Source of the DNA: Armatimonas rosea
GTDB taxonomy: Bacteria; Armatimonadota; Armatimonadia; Armatimonadales; Armatimonadaceae
Reading direction: 5' to 3'
Assembly (NCBI RefSeq): GCF_014202505.1
Contig: NZ_JACHGW010000002.1
Span: 124,001-188,000, forward strand
Length of the DNA stretch: 64,000 nucleotides
The stretch's first letter is position 1. Each line of letters opens with the position of its first letter. A program made the translations under genes and the position numbers. This document shows, piece after piece, positions 12,335 to 18,841 of the stretch. A model generated the notes under the pieces. It was not told the origin of the DNA. It ran no database searches and saw only the letters and a program-made list of their open reading frames with translations.

Positions 12335-12344
12335 TTCGCTCGCC

Positions 12345-12516
12345 CCTGTTTTGGATCGCTCCCATGAACGGGAGCGTCTCGCTGTCGTCGCAAGCTCCGA
12401 CACGAAGGGCTCCGCCCATAACCGCGTTTACGCGGGGTCGGCATGGGCGAAGCCCTTTGTGTCCGAGGCACGAGGACAGTAAGACGCCCCCGTTCATGGG
12501 AGCGATCTAAAACAGG
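12345..12516. repeat. Long palindromic intergenic element, copy 1
   Basis: About 172 bp lying between two convergent genes. The ends are inverted: GATCGCTCCCATGAACGGG on the left and its complement on the right. The arms stay complementary with few mismatches for about 65 bases, and the loop contains a nested hairpin CCGCGTTTACGCGG. Two related copies lie at 30072-30250 and 49680-49846. No open frame. Its place at a convergent gene junction would suit a bidirectional terminator. Confidence 0.85.
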
Positions 12517-12526
12517 GCCCATTTTT

Positions 12527-13792
12527 TTATAGGTCCTGGTACTCGGGAGGAAGCGTGATCTTATGGCGCGTGATGAGCTGCGTTGCTTGCTCGTGGTAGG
12601 AAAACGCCTCCCGCGGCTCACGGAGCTGATGGAGCGCATGCCCAATGAGTAAAAGGGTCAAGGCCGACTCGTGCTCCAGAAACCCTGCCTCTCGGTGGAG
12701 GTTCTCAAGAATAGGGAGCGCTTTCTGCGGCTGACCCGCAAGAAGCAGGTGCCGTGCGTAGTCACGCTCGCGGTACTTCGCCTCACCATAGCTATAAGCG
12801 TCCTCCGATGCTAGCTTAACGGCGTGGCGGGAGCGTGTTAGAGCGAGATCGGACTGCCCCTCTTGTGCTAAGTAGTTTGCCTGGATACTAGAAAGCCAGG
12901 CGTGGATACTAGGCAGAGCCGAGTAGTCTTGCCATTGGTCTAGGAAAGCGACGGCGGCACGAGGACCTTTTCGGGCTGCTTCGATGGCGGCGAATGCCAC
13001 AATGCCTCTTGTCTGGCAGGCTTCAATCCTGGTACCTGCTGCTTTAACAAGCTCAATCGAGGCACGTGCTTGGACTTCGGCCATACGTACCTGTTGCTGC
13101 AGAAACAGTGTGTCATAGCCCTGAGCCCCCCAGATTCCTGCTTGGGCGGCGAGGCTTCCTGTTAGATCCCTCTGTCCCAGCTCGGCATGGCGTGCCGCGA
13201 TATACCAGGAGATCAGGGTGTTGTTGGGAGCCAAGCTAAGGAATGTCATCTCCGTGTGGAGAGCGATCAAGGAAGAGTAGTCCAGCGGAAGTGGCTCTTG
13301 CTCGATAAAGCCGCGTGTGGTGAGGTGAAGTGTCTCATCGAGCGAGGCACCTAGTGCGTAGCAGAGGGCGTGGAGCTTCTGACCATCGGGCCAGCGCTCG
13401 CCCCGCTCCCAGCGGGAGAGCATCTCCCGAGTGACACCGGCGGCCCGTGCGGCGTCTTCCTGGGTGACTCCCGAGCGAAGCCGTAGCGCTCGCAGGAGCT
13501 CGCCGCCACTGAGCTTTCGTAGGCCTGGGGGTTCCTCGTGCTGGTAGAGAGCGGCGCGTGGTGTGTCTAGCTGGCGCCGGAGTACTGCCGCTTCGTGTGC
13601 GGTGACCTCAAGGACATTGAGCGTGGTGCTGAGCTCCTGCATGGAGGGGCTCTGGATACCGCGCTCCCAGCGCGAGAGGGTGGACTTGTGAATCCCACAG
13701 CGGAGGGAGAGCGCTCCGAGGGAGAGACCGCGCCGGAGACGCCACTGCTGGAGCTGTTGCCCAATGGTTAGTGTGTCTGAAGACAATACCAC
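12527..13792 (-). CDS. XRE-family regulator with two tandem HTH domains and TPR-like C-terminus
   Basis: A 421-residue protein. The N-terminal half has two helix-turn-helix domains, about 10-65 (CGIHKSTLSRWERGIQSPS) and about 95-150 (AGVTREMLSRWERGERWPD). The C-terminal 270 residues are alpha-helical and repeat-like, resembling the TPR peptide-sensing domains of quorum-type XRE regulators. It is divergent from an exported secretin-like gene, a likely target. A paralogue lies at 15038-16300. The start is GTG, with TATAAT ending 8 bases upstream, so the transcript is probably leaderless. The ligand is unknown. Confidence 0.87.
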   Translation of the reverse strand: MVLSSDTLTIGQQLQQWRLRRGLSLGALSLRCGIHKSTLSRWERGIQSPSMQELSTTLNVLEVTAHEAAVLRRQLDTPRAALYQHEEPPGLRKLSGGELLRALRLRSGVTQEDAARAAGVTREMLSRWERGERWPDGQKLHALCYALGASLDETLHLTTRGFIEQEPLPLDYSSLIALHTEMTFLSLAPNNTLISWYIAARHAELGQRDLTGSLAAQAGIWGAQGYDTLFLQQQVRMAEVQARASIELVKAAGTRIEACQTRGIVAFAAIEAARKGPRAAVAFLDQWQDYSALPSIHAWLSSIQANYLAQEGQSDLALTRSRHAVKLASEDAYSYGEAKYRERDYARHLLLAGQPQKALPILENLHREAGFLEHESALTLLLIGHALHQLREPREAFSYHEQATQLITRHKITLPPEYQDL

Positions 13793-13800
13793 GGTCTCAC

Positions 13801-13829
13801 ATTATAGCGAAAATCATGCCTACTGGCAA
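13801..13829 (-). promoter_or_regulatory. Promoter of first XRE gene (TTGCCA-17-TATAAT)
   Basis: On the minus strand a TTGCCA -35 box (13824-13829) and a TATAAT -10 box (13801-13806) are 17 bases apart. The surrounding bases are conserved in front of the paralogous XRE gene, including a TCGCAAC motif upstream that could be an operator. Confidence 0.7.
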
Positions 13830-13910
13830 AAAAGTGTTGCGACTTTGGTTCCCCCCCTTGAATGCTCGGCAGAGTTTCTTTAGGATGCGGGGAATAGGAT
13901 CCTATACCCC

Positions 13911-15032
13911 ATGAAATATCAATCCCTCTTCCTCACGGCACTTGCGCTTGTCGCATTGCCTATCTCGTCTTTTGGACGCTCCGTCTCCGCTCGGCAGGCC
14001 ACGGCGCAAGATGCCAGTGACACGGTCGATGTGATCTACCGCTGTCGCTACATCCGCTCGGCGAGTGCGCTGACCATGCTCACCGCACTCTTCCCCGCCG
14101 ACCAGCTCAAGGCCGTTGTGGGACCGGAGCCCTACTCTCCCCGCATTGAACAGGCAGCGACCTCCAATGGCTCCCAGGTGACCGCGGTCAAGACCTTGGC
14201 GGAGACCGAGGCGGGGCTGGTCTCTCACGACATCATCCTCTCGGGCAAGCGCGCCACTGTCGACCGGGCTATGGCGCTCTTGGAGAAGGCGGATCACCAC
14301 CGCAAGCAGGTGAAGCTCAATGTCAAGATCGCGGACATGGACCTGGAGAAGCTACTGGACCTGGGGATCAAGTGGAACTGGGCGCCCAACTTTACCGTCT
14401 CCGAGAAGGGTGAGTCGGCGACCAGCGCCACGGGGATCGCGCCCCACAAGTTCAGTGTCGGCAACTGGGTGCACACCCCCGAGTTCATCAACGCTGCGCT
14501 CTCGTCCAATACCCAGAACAACACCGTACGCCTGCTGGCCCAGCCCAATATCTCCCTCCTCGACGGCGAGCGTGGCTTCATTCTGATCGGTGAGCGCATT
14601 CTCTTCCCTAAGATCGTCTCCTACTCGTCGGTGGGCCTGCCGATCTACGACAAAGAGGAGGTACGCACCGGTATCTACATCCAGGTCGCAGTACAGATGT
14701 CCGACCACGGGGACATGACCCTCTCGGTCTATCCGCAAGTCTCGGTGATCTCTGGATTTTTGGACATCAACGGCACCAAGTACCCGGAGATCAACACCCG
14801 TGAGGAGCAGACCACGGTGCGCATCAAGGACAAAGAGACCCTCGTGATCGGTGGCCTCCTGCGTGAGGACGAGATCACCAAGATGACAGCCGTGCCCGGC
14901 CTCTCAAAGATCCCGGTCTTTGGCGAGCTCTTCAAGAACCGCTCGACCTCGCATGTCAAGAGCGACCTGGTCATCACCATCACTCCGGAGACGATCGACG
15001 ACGACGAGACGGGGACGATCGTTAAGAAGTAG
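13911..15032 (+). CDS. Orphan secretin-like protein (GspD/PilQ C-terminal domain)
   Basis: A 373-residue exported protein with a signal peptide (about 1-25). A short N-terminal module contains the secretin N-domain-like ILSGKRATVDRAMALLEKAD, and the C-terminal secretin domain ends VPGLSKIPVFGELFKNRST then SDLVITITPE, a diagnostic signature of outer-membrane secretins. At 373 residues it is shorter than complete PilQ or GspD, and no other secretion gene is adjacent. It may form a small pore or cooperate with a pilus system elsewhere. It is divergent from an XRE regulator. TAGGAT ends 10 bases before the ATG. Confidence 0.85.
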   Translation: MKYQSLFLTALALVALPISSFGRSVSARQATAQDASDTVDVIYRCRYIRSASALTMLTALFPADQLKAVVGPEPYSPRIEQAATSNGSQVTAVKTLAETEAGLVSHDIILSGKRATVDRAMALLEKADHHRKQVKLNVKIADMDLEKLLDLGIKWNWAPNFTVSEKGESATSATGIAPHKFSVGNWVHTPEFINAALSSNTQNNTVRLLAQPNISLLDGERGFILIGERILFPKIVSYSSVGLPIYDKEEVRTGIYIQVAVQMSDHGDMTLSVYPQVSVISGFLDINGTKYPEINTREEQTTVRIKDKETLVIGGLLREDEITKMTAVPGLSKIPVFGELFKNRSTSHVKSDLVITITPETIDDDETGTIVKK

Positions 15033-15037
15033 CGCTG

Positions 15038-16300
15038 CTAGAGGCTCTGGTACTCAGGAGGGAGAGAAAGGCGGTGCCGGGCGAGGGACTCCATCGCCTG
15101 CTCTCGGTAGGTGAGTGCCTCACCGACCTCTCCTACTGCGTAGAGGGCCTTGGCAAAGAGGAAGCAGGTCGGGCCACTCTCCTGCTTGGGGAGGGCACTG
15201 GAATCCTGAAGGCTCTGAAGAACCTCCAGCGCCCGCCTTGGCTCTTTGGCGAGAAGCAGGTGCCGTGCGTAGTCGCGGTGGCGGTAGGCTCCCTCTTTGG
15301 GATCGTTGCTCTCGTTGCTGATGAGCTTCCGGGCGGCATCAGAGCGCTGGAGCGCACTCGTAATTTCCCCCGCTCGAAGCAAATAGTCCGCCTGAATACT
15401 GTAGACCCAGGCACGCAGGTGGATGATGGTAACAAGACCCAGCCAACTCTCCAGGAACCGGACTGCGGCTAGGGGGCCACTCTGGCGCGATTCGACCTCG
15501 GCCTGAACGAGGATTCCTCGGAGCTGGGATGCGCCTAGAAAGCCACGACAATCTTGCATCAGGCGCATCGTTTGCTGCCCGAGGCGGGAGGCAGATCCCA
15601 AGTTTCCCTGGTGCCAGAGATTGTAGCCCAATGTTCCCCAGATCGCTGCCTGGATGAGCTGTAGACGAAATGGGTCTCCTCGATCAAGCTCTGCAAACCG
15701 GGCGGCGATGTGCCAGTTGGCAAGCTCCAGCTTCGGCGAGGTGGTGTCGTAGGCGAGCGCAAGATGGATTTGTAGGAGCGCGGGCCTCTCTAGTGGGAGT
15801 GGCTCTTGCTCGATAAAGCCGCGTGTGGTGAGGTGAAGTGTCTCATCGAGCGAGGCGCCTAGTGCGTAGCAGAGGGCATGGAGCTTCTGACCATCGGGCC
15901 AGCGCTCGCCCCGCTCCCAGCGGGAGAGCATCTCCCGAGTGACACCGGCGGCCCGTGCGGCGTCTTGCTGCGTGACTCCCGAGCGTAGGCGTAGCGCGCG
16001 CAAGAGCTCGCCGCCACTGATCTGTCGCATCCCGGCGGGTTCCTGATGTCGGTAGAGCACCGCCCGTGGGGCATCGAGCTGTTGCCAGCAAGCCGCCCGC
16101 TCTTGGGCAGAGACCTCCAGTGCCTTAAGGGTATCGTCGAGCTCCCGTGTGGAGGGGAGCTGGATACCGCGTTCCCAGCGGGAGAGGGTGGACTTATGAA
16201 TCCCACAGCGGAGGGAGAGCGCTCCGAGGGAGAGACCGCGCCGGAGACGCCACTGCTGGAGCTGCTGCCCAACGGTCGGCGCATCTGAGGCCAGTATCAC
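15038..16300 (-). CDS. XRE-family regulator with two tandem HTH domains (paralogue)
   Basis: A 420-residue paralogue of the protein at 12527-13792 with the same plan: HTH 1 (CGIHKSTLSRWERGIQLPS), HTH 2 (AGVTREMLSRWERGERWPD) and a TPR-like helical C-terminus. The DNA of the HTH halves is nearly identical between the copies, while the sensor halves have diverged strongly, suggesting the same DNA site but different ligands. It is divergent from a CAP-domain gene. GTG start, TATAAT 8 bases upstream. It ends 5 bases from the convergent secretin gene. Confidence 0.87.
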   Translation of the reverse strand: MILASDAPTVGQQLQQWRLRRGLSLGALSLRCGIHKSTLSRWERGIQLPSTRELDDTLKALEVSAQERAACWQQLDAPRAVLYRHQEPAGMRQISGGELLRALRLRSGVTQQDAARAAGVTREMLSRWERGERWPDGQKLHALCYALGASLDETLHLTTRGFIEQEPLPLERPALLQIHLALAYDTTSPKLELANWHIAARFAELDRGDPFRLQLIQAAIWGTLGYNLWHQGNLGSASRLGQQTMRLMQDCRGFLGASQLRGILVQAEVESRQSGPLAAVRFLESWLGLVTIIHLRAWVYSIQADYLLRAGEITSALQRSDAARKLISNESNDPKEGAYRHRDYARHLLLAKEPRRALEVLQSLQDSSALPKQESGPTCFLFAKALYAVGEVGEALTYREQAMESLARHRLSLPPEYQSL

Positions 16301-16308
16301 GATCTCGC

Positions 16309-16337
16309 ATTATAGCGAAAAGTATGCCTTTCTACAA
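16309..16337 (-). promoter_or_regulatory. Promoter of second XRE gene (TTGTAG-17-TATAAT)
   Basis: On the minus strand TTGTAG (16332-16337) and TATAAT (16309-16314) are 17 bases apart. The flanks AGGCAT, TTTTCGC and the upstream TCGCAAC match those of the first XRE promoter. Confidence 0.65.
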
Positions 16338-16439
16338 AAGCGTTGCGATTTTGGTTCCATCTCTGGCTGTGCGGACACAGGGACGGTACCTTGCAAGCGA
16401 GAGTTCAAGAAGGCTCTAAGAGGTTTGAGGAATAGAATC

Positions 16440-17108
16440 ATGAAGACTACGAATCTTGTTTTGCCCGTATTGCTGGTCAGTGTTGCTTTGCCGGTCGGTA
16501 TTTCCGCAAGGAATACTCCACAACAAGAGGTAATCGCTAAGATAAATGCTTACAGAGCAACTAAAAAAGCTCAAGCACTTGTATCTGATGATGTGCTAAA
16601 TAAGTCAGCGCAGTTATATGCTGATGTGCTTTCTAAAACAGATAAGACAGGCCACACTGTAGAGATGACGACGCCTAACGGTAAGACATGTAAGACTTTT
16701 GAAGAAAGAACAGGTATCGCAGCAATCGAGCTTGCAGGAGGGGATCTTAAAAAGAACTATCAGTTCTCCTATGTGAATACTGCTGCGATTAAGGCTAAGG
16801 CTCCAGAACGGTTCTGGGTGAATCTAAAGCTTGGAGAGATCTTGGCTTATGGTCAAGCGACACCCGATGCTGCTGTGGAGGGCTGGAAAAAATCGGTCCA
16901 AGGGCACAATGAAAATATGTTAGATCCAAGCTGGACGCACATAGGAGTCGGCATCTCGAAGCGACCGTCAGGGGGCTTTAACTGGGTGGTGGTCTTTGGG
17001 ACGCCCAACCCTGATGCAAAGGCGATGATAGCGCTCGATGGGACTTTTGAGGGGAAGCCCATGCCCGAAAAATTTCAGTACTACACCAAGTACGTGAAGA
17101 AGCCCTAG
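16440..17108 (+). CDS. Secreted CAP (SCP/PR-1) domain protein
   Basis: A 222-residue exported protein with a signal peptide (about 1-23) and a CAP domain. Recognisable are the first helix (EVIAKINAYRATKKAQALV), a His in DKTGHTVE, GEILAYGQATPDAAVEGWKKS, the CAP2-like GHNENMLDPSWTHIGVGI and a final WVVVFGT strand. CAP proteins are extracellular with diverse roles. Codon usage is more AT-rich than in neighbouring genes, a hint of transfer. ATG 16440 is chosen over TTG 16425 because it begins the signal peptide and has GAGG upstream. Divergent from the second XRE regulator. Confidence 0.85.
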   Translation: MKTTNLVLPVLLVSVALPVGISARNTPQQEVIAKINAYRATKKAQALVSDDVLNKSAQLYADVLSKTDKTGHTVEMTTPNGKTCKTFEERTGIAAIELAGGDLKKNYQFSYVNTAAIKAKAPERFWVNLKLGEILAYGQATPDAAVEGWKKSVQGHNENMLDPSWTHIGVGISKRPSGGFNWVVVFGTPNPDAKAMIALDGTFEGKPMPEKFQYYTKYVKKP

Positions 17109-17364
17109 GAAGGGATGGGCATGGGAAAAGATACACACCTACATGTCTATCCCTACCTATGCTCCTAAGCCACCGCATAGCTCTGGAGCACTCGGGGAAC
17201 GACAAGACGAGCACCGCCAGTTCTCACGGACTTCCGCTGTGCCACTAGCGAGCGGCTCAAAAAGCATGCTAGGGTTTTGAGCTCGCCCAGGCAGGGAAGG
17301 GCGAGCTCTCCTAAAGCTTCAGGTGCTATGCCAAGCAGTTGGTTCGAAAGGAACTATTGGGCGA
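17109..17364 (+). other. Gap of 256 bases with a 10-bp stem hairpin
   Basis: No credible gene. A hairpin of GAGCTCGCCC and its exact complement lies at 17279-17308 but has no T-tract, so a terminator role is uncertain. AAGGAAC just before ATG 17365 is the ribosome-binding site of the next gene. Confidence 0.5.
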
Positions 17365-18054
17365 ATGAAACATATCGGCTCTATTTTGGGGGTAGCTGGT
17401 CTGCTTGTCGTAATGAGTGCCTCACGGCCTGCCAAGGCGCAAGGCAATAACGAACTGATTGACGCGATTGCAGGCGAGATCAATCGTGTGCGAGCCCGGC
17501 CTGACAAGGTCGCTAGCGAGTTGAAGGGACAGAAGGAGGCTCTCATTGCCGCTCGGGTTAAGGTCGGAGATTCAAAGGAAGATGCAACAAAGGCAATCGA
17601 AAGCTGCATTTTAGACTTAGAAAACATCCCCACCAAATACGATAGGCTAGAAAAAATTTACCTGGATGGGACGTTGACGAGTACTGCACAATTCTTTGCA
17701 GACTCACGAGAGCCCAGTAAACCTGCCTCCTCCCGACAAATCTATGCCAAGATGCTAAAGGGCGGCTACAGGCCTCCTCTGCCTCTGCCTATCTCTAAGG
17801 ACTCTTTTGAGGAGATCTTATTGACTCTCCCGAGTAAGGGAACCAACAGCGAGAAAGCCAAAGAGATTATACAGGACCTCCTCATCGACGGGGGAGCCTC
17901 AAACATTAGCTCCGGCTATCTGCGCCGTTGCTTTATTCTGGACTATAGGCTGGTAAGTATTCCTCCGAAACAAGCCGCTTATCGCGTGGTTTTCGCGGGT
18001 ATCGGCGTAAAGGGAGAGTCCCTTCGCATTCAGTATCTAGTTAGACCACGATGA
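17365..18054 (+). CDS. Exported CAP-like protein, degenerate
   Basis: A 229-residue protein with a signal peptide (MKHIGSILGVAGLLVVMSA, cleavage near KAQ). It resembles its neighbours: an opening helix IAGEINRVRARPDKVASEL, a central helical part, and a C-terminal IGVKGESLRIQYLV strand region like the CAP fold's IGVG strand. The canonical CAP His and Glu residues are not obvious, so the active-site-like cavity may be lost. ATG 17365 has AAGGAAC upstream and begins the signal peptide. Function unknown. Confidence 0.7.
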   Translation: MKHIGSILGVAGLLVVMSASRPAKAQGNNELIDAIAGEINRVRARPDKVASELKGQKEALIAARVKVGDSKEDATKAIESCILDLENIPTKYDRLEKIYLDGTLTSTAQFFADSREPSKPASSRQIYAKMLKGGYRPPLPLPISKDSFEEILLTLPSKGTNSEKAKEIIQDLLIDGGASNISSGYLRRCFILDYRLVSIPPKQAAYRVVFAGIGVKGESLRIQYLVRPR

Positions 18055-18070
18055 AAAAAGCAATAATACA

Positions 18071-18841
18071 ATGAAAAAAGACGTAAATCTAGGAATGTTA
18101 TGTGGGGCAGGTCTGCTCTTTGCAGCAGCGGCTCATGCCCAGCAAATCGACGACAACAACTCACCACCGCCGCCGCGCCCGCTGGACCGGGATCGCTTGG
18201 CTAAGGCGATCATCGAAGAGATCAATATCGCTCGCGTACACTCCAAATCGGTCTCCGACTCGATTGAGCAGCAGCGCAGCGCCTATATCACCCAGCGCAC
18301 CAAGCAGATCGCTAAGCCGGACTCGGAGAAGGTGGCTGCTGAGTCTATCGATACCTGCCTCACCGATATGCGGATCCATGTGGGAAGCGCCGGTCTACCG
18401 GAGCTGAAGACCGCTCCCAAGGGGATGCTCTTTGCCCAGAAGTGTATCGATACAATGCCCGACGATAAAAAAATCGTCTGGTTTGATATGGTAAAGGGCT
18501 GGGAGGCGGAGGGTAACCGCCGCCGCTCCATTGAGGACATTAAAGCCAACGGGACTCCCTGGCGCGAGCTGATCGTCCCGATCCCCACCTATGTCCCCAA
18601 GCCGCCGCGTGGCTGGGCTGACGAGGTGGATATCGCTCGACGGCTCGTCCTTGACAACCTCATTGACTGGGATCACTACACGGCGATGGTTCAGGAGATG
18701 CGCTTCTTCCATCGGCAAGTCCTTCTGGACTTCCGTTGCAAGCTCAACATAAGCGCGAGGTTTAAGGACATGAAGCGTGAGTGGAAGTACATCGGAGTGG
18801 GGGTCGGCAAGACCGTTGTCCGTATCCAGCTGGGAACCTAG
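18071..18841 (+). CDS. Exported CAP-like protein, degenerate
   Basis: A 256-residue protein with a signal peptide (1-23, cleavage near AHA-QQ) followed by a proline-rich stretch. The opening helix AIIEEINIARVHSKSVSDSI and the closing WKYIGVGVGKTVVRIQ parallel the two preceding genes, so the three look like a diverged tandem family. No catalytic residues are recognised. It starts 16 bases after the previous stop and is probably cotranscribed. It overlaps the end of the convergent gene at 18838 by 4 bases. Confidence 0.7.
   Translation: MKKDVNLGMLCGAGLLFAAAAHAQQIDDNNSPPPPRPLDRDRLAKAIIEEINIARVHSKSVSDSIEQQRSAYITQRTKQIAKPDSEKVAAESIDTCLTDMRIHVGSAGLPELKTAPKGMLFAQKCIDTMPDDKKIVWFDMVKGWEAEGNRRRSIEDIKANGTPWRELIVPIPTYVPKPPRGWADEVDIARRLVLDNLIDWDHYTAMVQEMRFFHRQVLLDFRCKLNISARFKDMKREWKYIGVGVGKTVVRIQLGT

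Follow-up and report, generated by a model that had tools for sequence, protein, structure and literature searches.

The 64,000-nucleotide stretch of the Armatimonas rosea genome analyzed here (assembly GCF_014202505.1, contig NZ_JACHGW010000002.1, positions 124,001 to 188,000; hereafter the window) encodes two paralogous regulators, A and B, whose DNA-reading segments are nearly identical down to silent sites and whose sensor halves have diverged almost to saturation. At the level of anatomy, the sequence comparisons lend good support to the formula 'one operator, two sensors, kept alike by gene conversion'. The full account, in which an old duplication was followed by short-tract conversion of the helix-turn-helix (HTH) coding segments, so that two sensors would feed a common operator, we hold to be probable (roughly 0.65). 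It builds on the mosaic divergence between the genes, silent sites included, on boxes common to both promoters, on a motif in distant relatives that is related to one of these boxes, and on exported-protein genes that lie divergent to the regulators. A preliminary description of this DNA, made from its letters and open reading frames, had proposed one operator read in response to two ligands, with gene conversion keeping the HTH halves alike; its evolutionary reading is now well supported, and for its functional reading, which is plausible, the support is moderate.

Regulators A and B are encoded as direct repeats with a spacing of 2.5 kb (Table 1), and the two proteins are 57% identical overall. 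Two stretches in each protein match the Pfam families HTH_3/HTH_31 (90-92 bits against a gathering cut-off of 23), which identifies A and B as XRE-family (HTH_3) regulators with two tandem XRE domains apiece, as had been recognized at first inspection. The C-terminal half of both is helical, with weak Pfam matches to tetratricopeptide repeats (TPR). The recognition-helix regions are identical in the two proteins, HKSTLSRWE in the first HTH (HTH1) and TREMLSRWE in the second (HTH2).

Identity computed along the two genes is strikingly uneven. The HTH2 DNA of A (13291-13455) differs from that of B (15799-15963) at exactly 2 of 165 bases, in agreement with the original estimate of about two, and the edge of the tract is sharp, with 8-11 differences per 15 bases just before 13291. 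The HTH1 segments, 13661-13768 and 16169-16276, differ at 5 of 108 bases and contain 68 consecutive identical bases (13689-13756); their near-identity had been noted before, but with 16170-16277 as the partner, which is one base out of register. In the codon alignment of A and B, which is interrupted by a single gap, near-identity is confined to codons 12-50 and about 96-170, whereas codons 1-11, 51-95 and 171-421 are diverged. Accordingly, synonymous divergence (dS, NG86) is 0.12 in HTH1 and 0.29 over codons 96-180, a range that includes diverged ends, as against 1.46 for codons 53-95, the linker, and about 2 for codons 181-421, the C-terminal part, which places the linker and the C-terminal halves near saturation. 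C-terminal protein identity is 39% in the phylum alignment, and the strong difference between the sensor halves seen in the first survey is thus borne out. Where A and B share an amino acid, the codon is identical at 93 of 107 positions in the HTH segments and at 60 of 122 elsewhere (p=8e-10). In the comparison that was run together with the control pairs described below, silent-site identity is 0.87 in the HTH segments versus 0.48 elsewhere (p=4.9e-10). In a separate permutation test on silent sites, the longest silent-identical run spans 26 sites, against a shuffled mean of 11.6 (p=7.5e-4).

Comparison with other members of the family helps to separate conservation from exchange. Across the phylum, HTH identity was predicted from C-terminal identity in 1,035 pairs drawn from 46 proteins of the same architecture. 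At a C-terminal identity of 0.39 the expected HTH identity is 0.51, and A and B reach 0.92, which lies 8.3 standard deviations above expectation; the next largest residual among the remaining 1,034 pairs is 0.16, so this pair alone breaks the relation between HTH and C-terminus. In addition, ten same-family control pairs (nine between genomes, one within a genome) have no HTH excess at silent sites (0.27-0.65 vs 0.38-0.64, n=10), which indicates that a general nucleotide-level constraint on HTH coding DNA is not the explanation, and no HTH homogenization was seen in other same-genome paralogs of the phylum. It might be argued that A and B are simply old duplicates in which strong purifying selection alone conserved the HTHs for their function while the sensors drifted, without any exchange of DNA. 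HTH domains are indeed more conserved than TPR halves family-wide, yet selection at the protein level leaves the near-identical silent codons unexplained, and neither the control pairs, nor the contrast between a dS of 0.12 in HTH1 and about 2 in the C-terminal half, nor the position of the pair 8.3 standard deviations above the family trend agrees with it. We therefore consider this view, which is contradicted by the silent-site test and could be revived only if the HTH DNA had some overlapping function that escaped detection, very improbable. Recent short-tract gene conversion, or an equivalent form of recombination, appears to explain the mosaic best, and the silent-site excess, absent from the control pairs, is in line with the earlier suggestion that conversion keeps the HTH halves alike.

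Exchange could also have taken the form of domain shuffling, in which a single event joined a common promoter and HTH reader to two sensors, the donor being the partner gene or an unsampled third copy. Such an event would account for a common reader with diverged sensors, and the HTH2 tract does stop abruptly at 13290/13291, where the sensor begins. However, the 43-codon linker that separates the HTHs is diverged at silent sites (dS 1.46), although transfer in one block should have overwritten it. Moreover, the search of the genome for more copies, which had been recommended at the outset, returned no third close copy, either as HTH DNA or as protein, and only two remote paralogs with the same architecture, and the C-terminal halves are homologous and collinear, with one gap, as those of simple duplicates should be. 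We regard a single shuffling event as unlikely.

The two genes also have upstream elements in common, as the preliminary description had supposed. The regulator-proximal 75 upstream bases are 79% identical between A and B, with Box 1 lying over the -10 element and Box 2 beyond the -35 element. Outside the two promoters, the genome has no further copy of the common boxes. Box 2 (GGAACCAAANTCGCAAC on the regulator strand; searched as GTTGCGANTTTGGTTCC) has exactly two occurrences in the genome, also when 2 mismatches are allowed. In both genes the end of TATAAT is only 8 bases from the GTG start codon, which suggests that the regulator mRNAs are probably near-leaderless. The Box 3 pattern, GRGGAATAGRATC, likewise has two genome matches only, both before target start codons, but we treat it as a hint because the pattern was derived from the very same two copies and the distal intergenic parts of A and B are only marginally collinear (p=0.046). 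A search for an inverted-repeat operator found no dyad common to both promoters, and Box 1 had no convincing match in other family members.

When 43 upstream regions were searched for motifs, nncRAAATTGCAACA-like sites emerged (log-likelihood ratio 97 versus 53-62 for shuffled sequences), and they included Box 2 of both A and B. To avoid circularity, the search was repeated without the window sequence on 13 regulators of another Armatimonadota family (f16). The first motif returned de novo from this set was the promoter -10, TGTGGTATAAT, and only the second, tcGAAATTGCAAAA, was operator-like (n=13; log-likelihood ratio 70 versus 41-46 shuffled); within each of the two window intergenic regions, the latter matches best at Box 2, and in the same orientation. 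On the strength of this match to a motif from another family, Box 2 (GGAACCAAANTCGCAAC) is probably the operator, a conclusion with moderate support. The f16 regulator promoters (L059-L074 upstream regions) also share an extended -10, TTTGTGGTATAAT.

The boxes also bear on the question of whether the two regulators are coupled. A and B could be two parallel local switches, with readers alike through recent exchange but each acting on its own neighbor, so that the boxes would be leftovers from duplication and conversion, without cross-regulation, and the two circuits would be kept separate by different expression times or extra contacts. Family members normally stand alone opposite one exported gene, which makes a local switch the likely ancestral state, and the -35 hexamers of A and B differ (TTGCCA versus TTGTAG). 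Against this, Box 2 is kept amid diverged flanks and resembles the motif of another family, which argues that it is not a mere leftover, and with their identical recognition helices both proteins are predicted to bind at either site. We see two uncoupled switches as possible but not likely.

The coupled arrangement that we favor could have arisen as follows. An ancient tandem duplication of the regulator gene with its two-way promoter would have yielded two copies that came to face unrelated exported genes, one with a secretin domain and one with a CAP domain, while the TPR sensors diverged almost to saturation. Later, an HTH1 tract of about 110 bases and an HTH2 tract of about 170 bases with an adjoining shoulder of lower similarity would have been copied by ectopic gene conversion or an equivalent process. 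Since the HTH tracts would have been copied between the genes, we propose that A and B recognize a common operator between the divergent promoters, for which Box 2 (GGAACCAAANTCGCAAC) together with Box 1 over the -10 is the likeliest candidate; with identical recognition-helix regions, both proteins should bind the same site, which is predicted at both loci. Each regulator would then control its own gene and the opposite exported gene and could also act at the promoter of its partner, which would combine auto- and cross-regulation. If the TPR domains sense different ligands, the inputs of the two sensors may be combined in an OR, AND or antagonist gate at the two exported-protein genes, and conversion confined to the reader would let the sensors evolve without uncoupling the pair. 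Several points weigh against this account. Close orthologs of A or B are absent among 11 family relatives. The pattern is patchy, with the -35 region, codons 1-11 and the linker diverged between conserved blocks, which would call for several tracts or added selection. The strict f16 matrix, built from all 13 members, gives Box 2 a rank of just 43 (B) and 233 (A) in the 64 kb, and the group-weighted matrix, which places Box 2 of B 2nd and of A 6th among about 128,000 window positions, uses sites chosen partly after Box 2 had been seen.

Structural comparison offers some guidance on the sensor half. An AlphaFold model built from three sequences (mean predicted local distance difference test score, pLDDT, 73) contains two HTH bundles and a superhelix of helical repeats, with residues 210-420 mostly at a pLDDT of 70 or more. 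TPR proteins gave the best structural matches (VIA-align), Rap, PlcR and NprR among them (Z 14.6-16.8), and a PDB profile search reached PlcR at E=2e-4. Scores comparable to those of Rap, PlcR and NprR were obtained with LGN, kinesin light chain and APC/C TPRs, and the fold match is therefore not specific to the RRNPPA family. Peptide sensing by the TPR domains of A and B is possible in terms of the modeled fold. A more definite version, compatible with the account given above, would make A and B RRNPP-type quorum sensors of two different exported peptides. The architecture of XRE plus TPR and the matches to PlcR, Rap and NprR would suit such a role, but eukaryotic and other TPR proteins score equally, A and B have two HTHs rather than one, and an intergenic scan, with tiny or distant peptides beyond its reach, found no convincing propeptide gene and no Phr/SHP-like gene. 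The scan did return one 31-amino-acid hydrophobic open reading frame at 16324 (+), on the strand opposite B, which is without a counterpart at A. We consider RRNPP-type sensing rather improbable. Of the original idea of one operator and two ligands, the part that stands is the common operator-like element in both promoters; the peptides are a fold-level suggestion only, and the recommended look for small peptides encoded nearby gave no convincing propeptide gene in the intergenic scan.

The genes opposite A and B encode different exported proteins, as first reported, with a secretin domain at A and a CAP domain at B, and their signal peptides have no significant homology (p=0.32). This arrangement recurs in the phylum. 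The divergent 5' neighbor is predicted to be exported in 21 of 28 relatives, the window pair included, compared with 63 of 153 other nearby genes (p=0.0016), in a test that used a codon-based gene caller and a crude export predictor with high background on related, non-independent genomes; a looser gene caller gave a weaker signal (p=0.09, or p=0.046 for neighbors of at least 120 amino acids). Clear exported neighbors include PEP-CTERM proteins (L023, L025, L080, L090), proteins of >1100 amino acids (L059, L064), proteins with dockerin-like ends (L063, L070, L072, L074) and pseudopilin-like proteins (L073, L091). In view of these neighbors across the phylum, the ancestral role of the regulators was likely that of a local switch for a divergent exported gene. 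A scan of GTDB genomes with a single regulator protein found no relatives, and a scan with a 3-sequence alignment reached one metagenome-assembled genome, Armatimonadetes bacterium ES-bin-131. No description of tandem-HTH XRE plus TPR proteins was found in the literature, of which coverage was partial, and the family is apparently undescribed. More tentatively, and with somewhat less than even confidence, we suggest that the Armatimonadota possess an undescribed one-component family (two XRE HTHs plus a TPR sensor) that stands opposite exported genes and has a conserved operator around GAAATTGCAA, and that here partial gene conversion homogenizes the reader alone, so that two sensors would feed one operator.

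A number of further features lie close to these genes. Directly before the ATG of the secretin gene is a near-perfect 22-bp palindrome (13889-13910, GGGGAATAGGATCCTATACCCC), which could be an operator or an mRNA hairpin. The CAP gene is followed by two more exported-protein genes (17365-18054 and 18071-18841), whose products are remote paralogs (BLASTP E 7e-7) without a Pfam match. The stretch 16440-18841 is AT-rich (GC 46-54% to about 18500, surroundings about 58-65%) and may have been acquired, given that the CAP gene has a single weak match in the family. A relative from a distant family (L061:5049-5510) is also divergent from a CAP-domain-like gene, identified by eye and without a predicted signal peptide, maybe by coincidence. 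In another Armatimonadota family, many exported proteins near the regulators end in dockerin-like repeats such as DVDGNGCVDDADLLTVLFNFG (L063, L070, L072, L074, L061, L066), which suggests a common surface-anchoring or assembly scheme. This genome has a third regulator with the architecture of A and B (L027:4606-7090, contig C9), near which lie a small XRE gene and a 220-amino-acid protein that by eye resembles GNAT or autoinducer-synthase-type enzymes. Finally, regulator A is followed at its 3' end by a palindromic interspersed repeat (12338-12525; arms of 47 nt, 89% complementary, with 80 nt between them), with a DEAD-box helicase gene on the far side. The repeat is dispersed through the genome in roughly 40 copies; the 73 matches obtained count most places twice, once per orientation.

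Table 1. Coordinates of the regulators, homogenized tracts, promoters, boxes and divergent genes, numbered from the first letter of the window.
Feature	Position	Strand	Description
Regulator A	12527-13792	-	421 aa, GTG start; tandem XRE HTH (about residues 10-64 and 97-157), TPR-like C-terminal domain
Regulator B	15038-16300	-	420 aa, GTG start; architecture as A
HTH2 tract, A	13291-13458	-	partner 15799-15966 in B; less alike shoulder to about 13515
HTH2 tract, B	15799-15966	-	partner 13291-13458 in A
HTH1 tract, A	13661-13768	-	13689-13756 wholly identical to B
HTH1 tract, B	16169-16276	-	partner 13661-13768 in A
Promoter of A	13801-13829	-	TTGCCA-17-TATAAT, 11/12 (promoter scan)
Promoter of B	16309-16337	-	TTGTAG-17-TATAAT, position as in A; read from the sequence, below scan threshold
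Box 1 of A	13800-13821		CATTATAGCGAAAATCATGCCT; overlaps -10 of regulator promoter
Box 1 of B	16308-16329		CATTATAGCGAAAAGTATGCCT
Box 2 of A, candidate operator	13836-13852	-	GGAACCAAAGTCGCAAC (regulator strand); between the two divergent promoters
Box 2 of B, candidate operator	16342-16358	-	GGAACCAAAATCGCAAC
Box 3 of A	13889-13901	+	GGGGAATAGGATC; just upstream of secretin gene start codon
Box 3 of B	16427-16439	+	GAGGAATAGAATC; abuts CAP gene start codon
Divergent target of A	13911-15032	+	exported secretin-domain (PF00263) protein, 373 aa; signal-peptide-like start
Divergent target of B	16440-17108	+	exported CAP-domain (PF00188) protein, 222 aa; signal-peptide-like start

Parts of this arrangement have counterparts in known systems. 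Wmk of Wolbachia phage WO (NCBIfam NF047948), which has two XRE-type HTH domains in one protein, gave a weak match over the HTH stretches only, far below the family cut-off; to our knowledge it has no TPR sensor, and its likeness to A and B is one of domain type only. PlcR and NprR resemble A and B in having a helical TPR domain behind a DNA-binding domain, in line with the profile and structure matches to PlcR, NprR and Rap (PMC9765709). However, the known RRNPPA members, described from Firmicutes, carry at most a single HTH and in many cases are close to a propeptide gene (PMC9765709), whereas A and B have two HTHs and no convincing propeptide gene was found in the intergenic scan.

A close parallel is with Rgg2 and Rgg3 of Streptococcus pyogenes, paralogous HTH plus TPR-like regulators that act on the same promoters with opposite effect and are 55% identical overall (72% in the HTH, 50% in the sensor part), each opposite a small gene under its own control (PMC3150281). 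Like A and B, they are a paralog pair with HTHs more alike than sensors and with each regulator opposite a gene that it controls or, in the case of A and B, would be expected to control, and the target promoters that they share illustrate that paired regulators of this kind can work. Rgg2 and Rgg3 have one HTH each, rather than two, and sense similar short peptides; in A and B, by contrast, the HTHs are near-identical down to silent sites, the sensors share about 39% identity, and the products of the divergent genes are long exported proteins rather than peptides. Duplicated prokaryotic genes can be kept alike by gene conversion or unequal recombination (PMC6053082), but in A and B the DNA-reading segments alone are alike and the sensors have escaped. 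Gene conversion usually appears to keep whole genes alike or to diversify surface proteins, and here it apparently acts module by module within a regulator. If this is true, the pair would afford a direct view of bacteria rewiring inputs while keeping the output, and the phylum-wide family offers a testable set of regulators, operators and targets in a poorly studied phylum. Set beside these systems, paired paralogous regulators and gene conversion are both of known kinds, and A and B combine the two.

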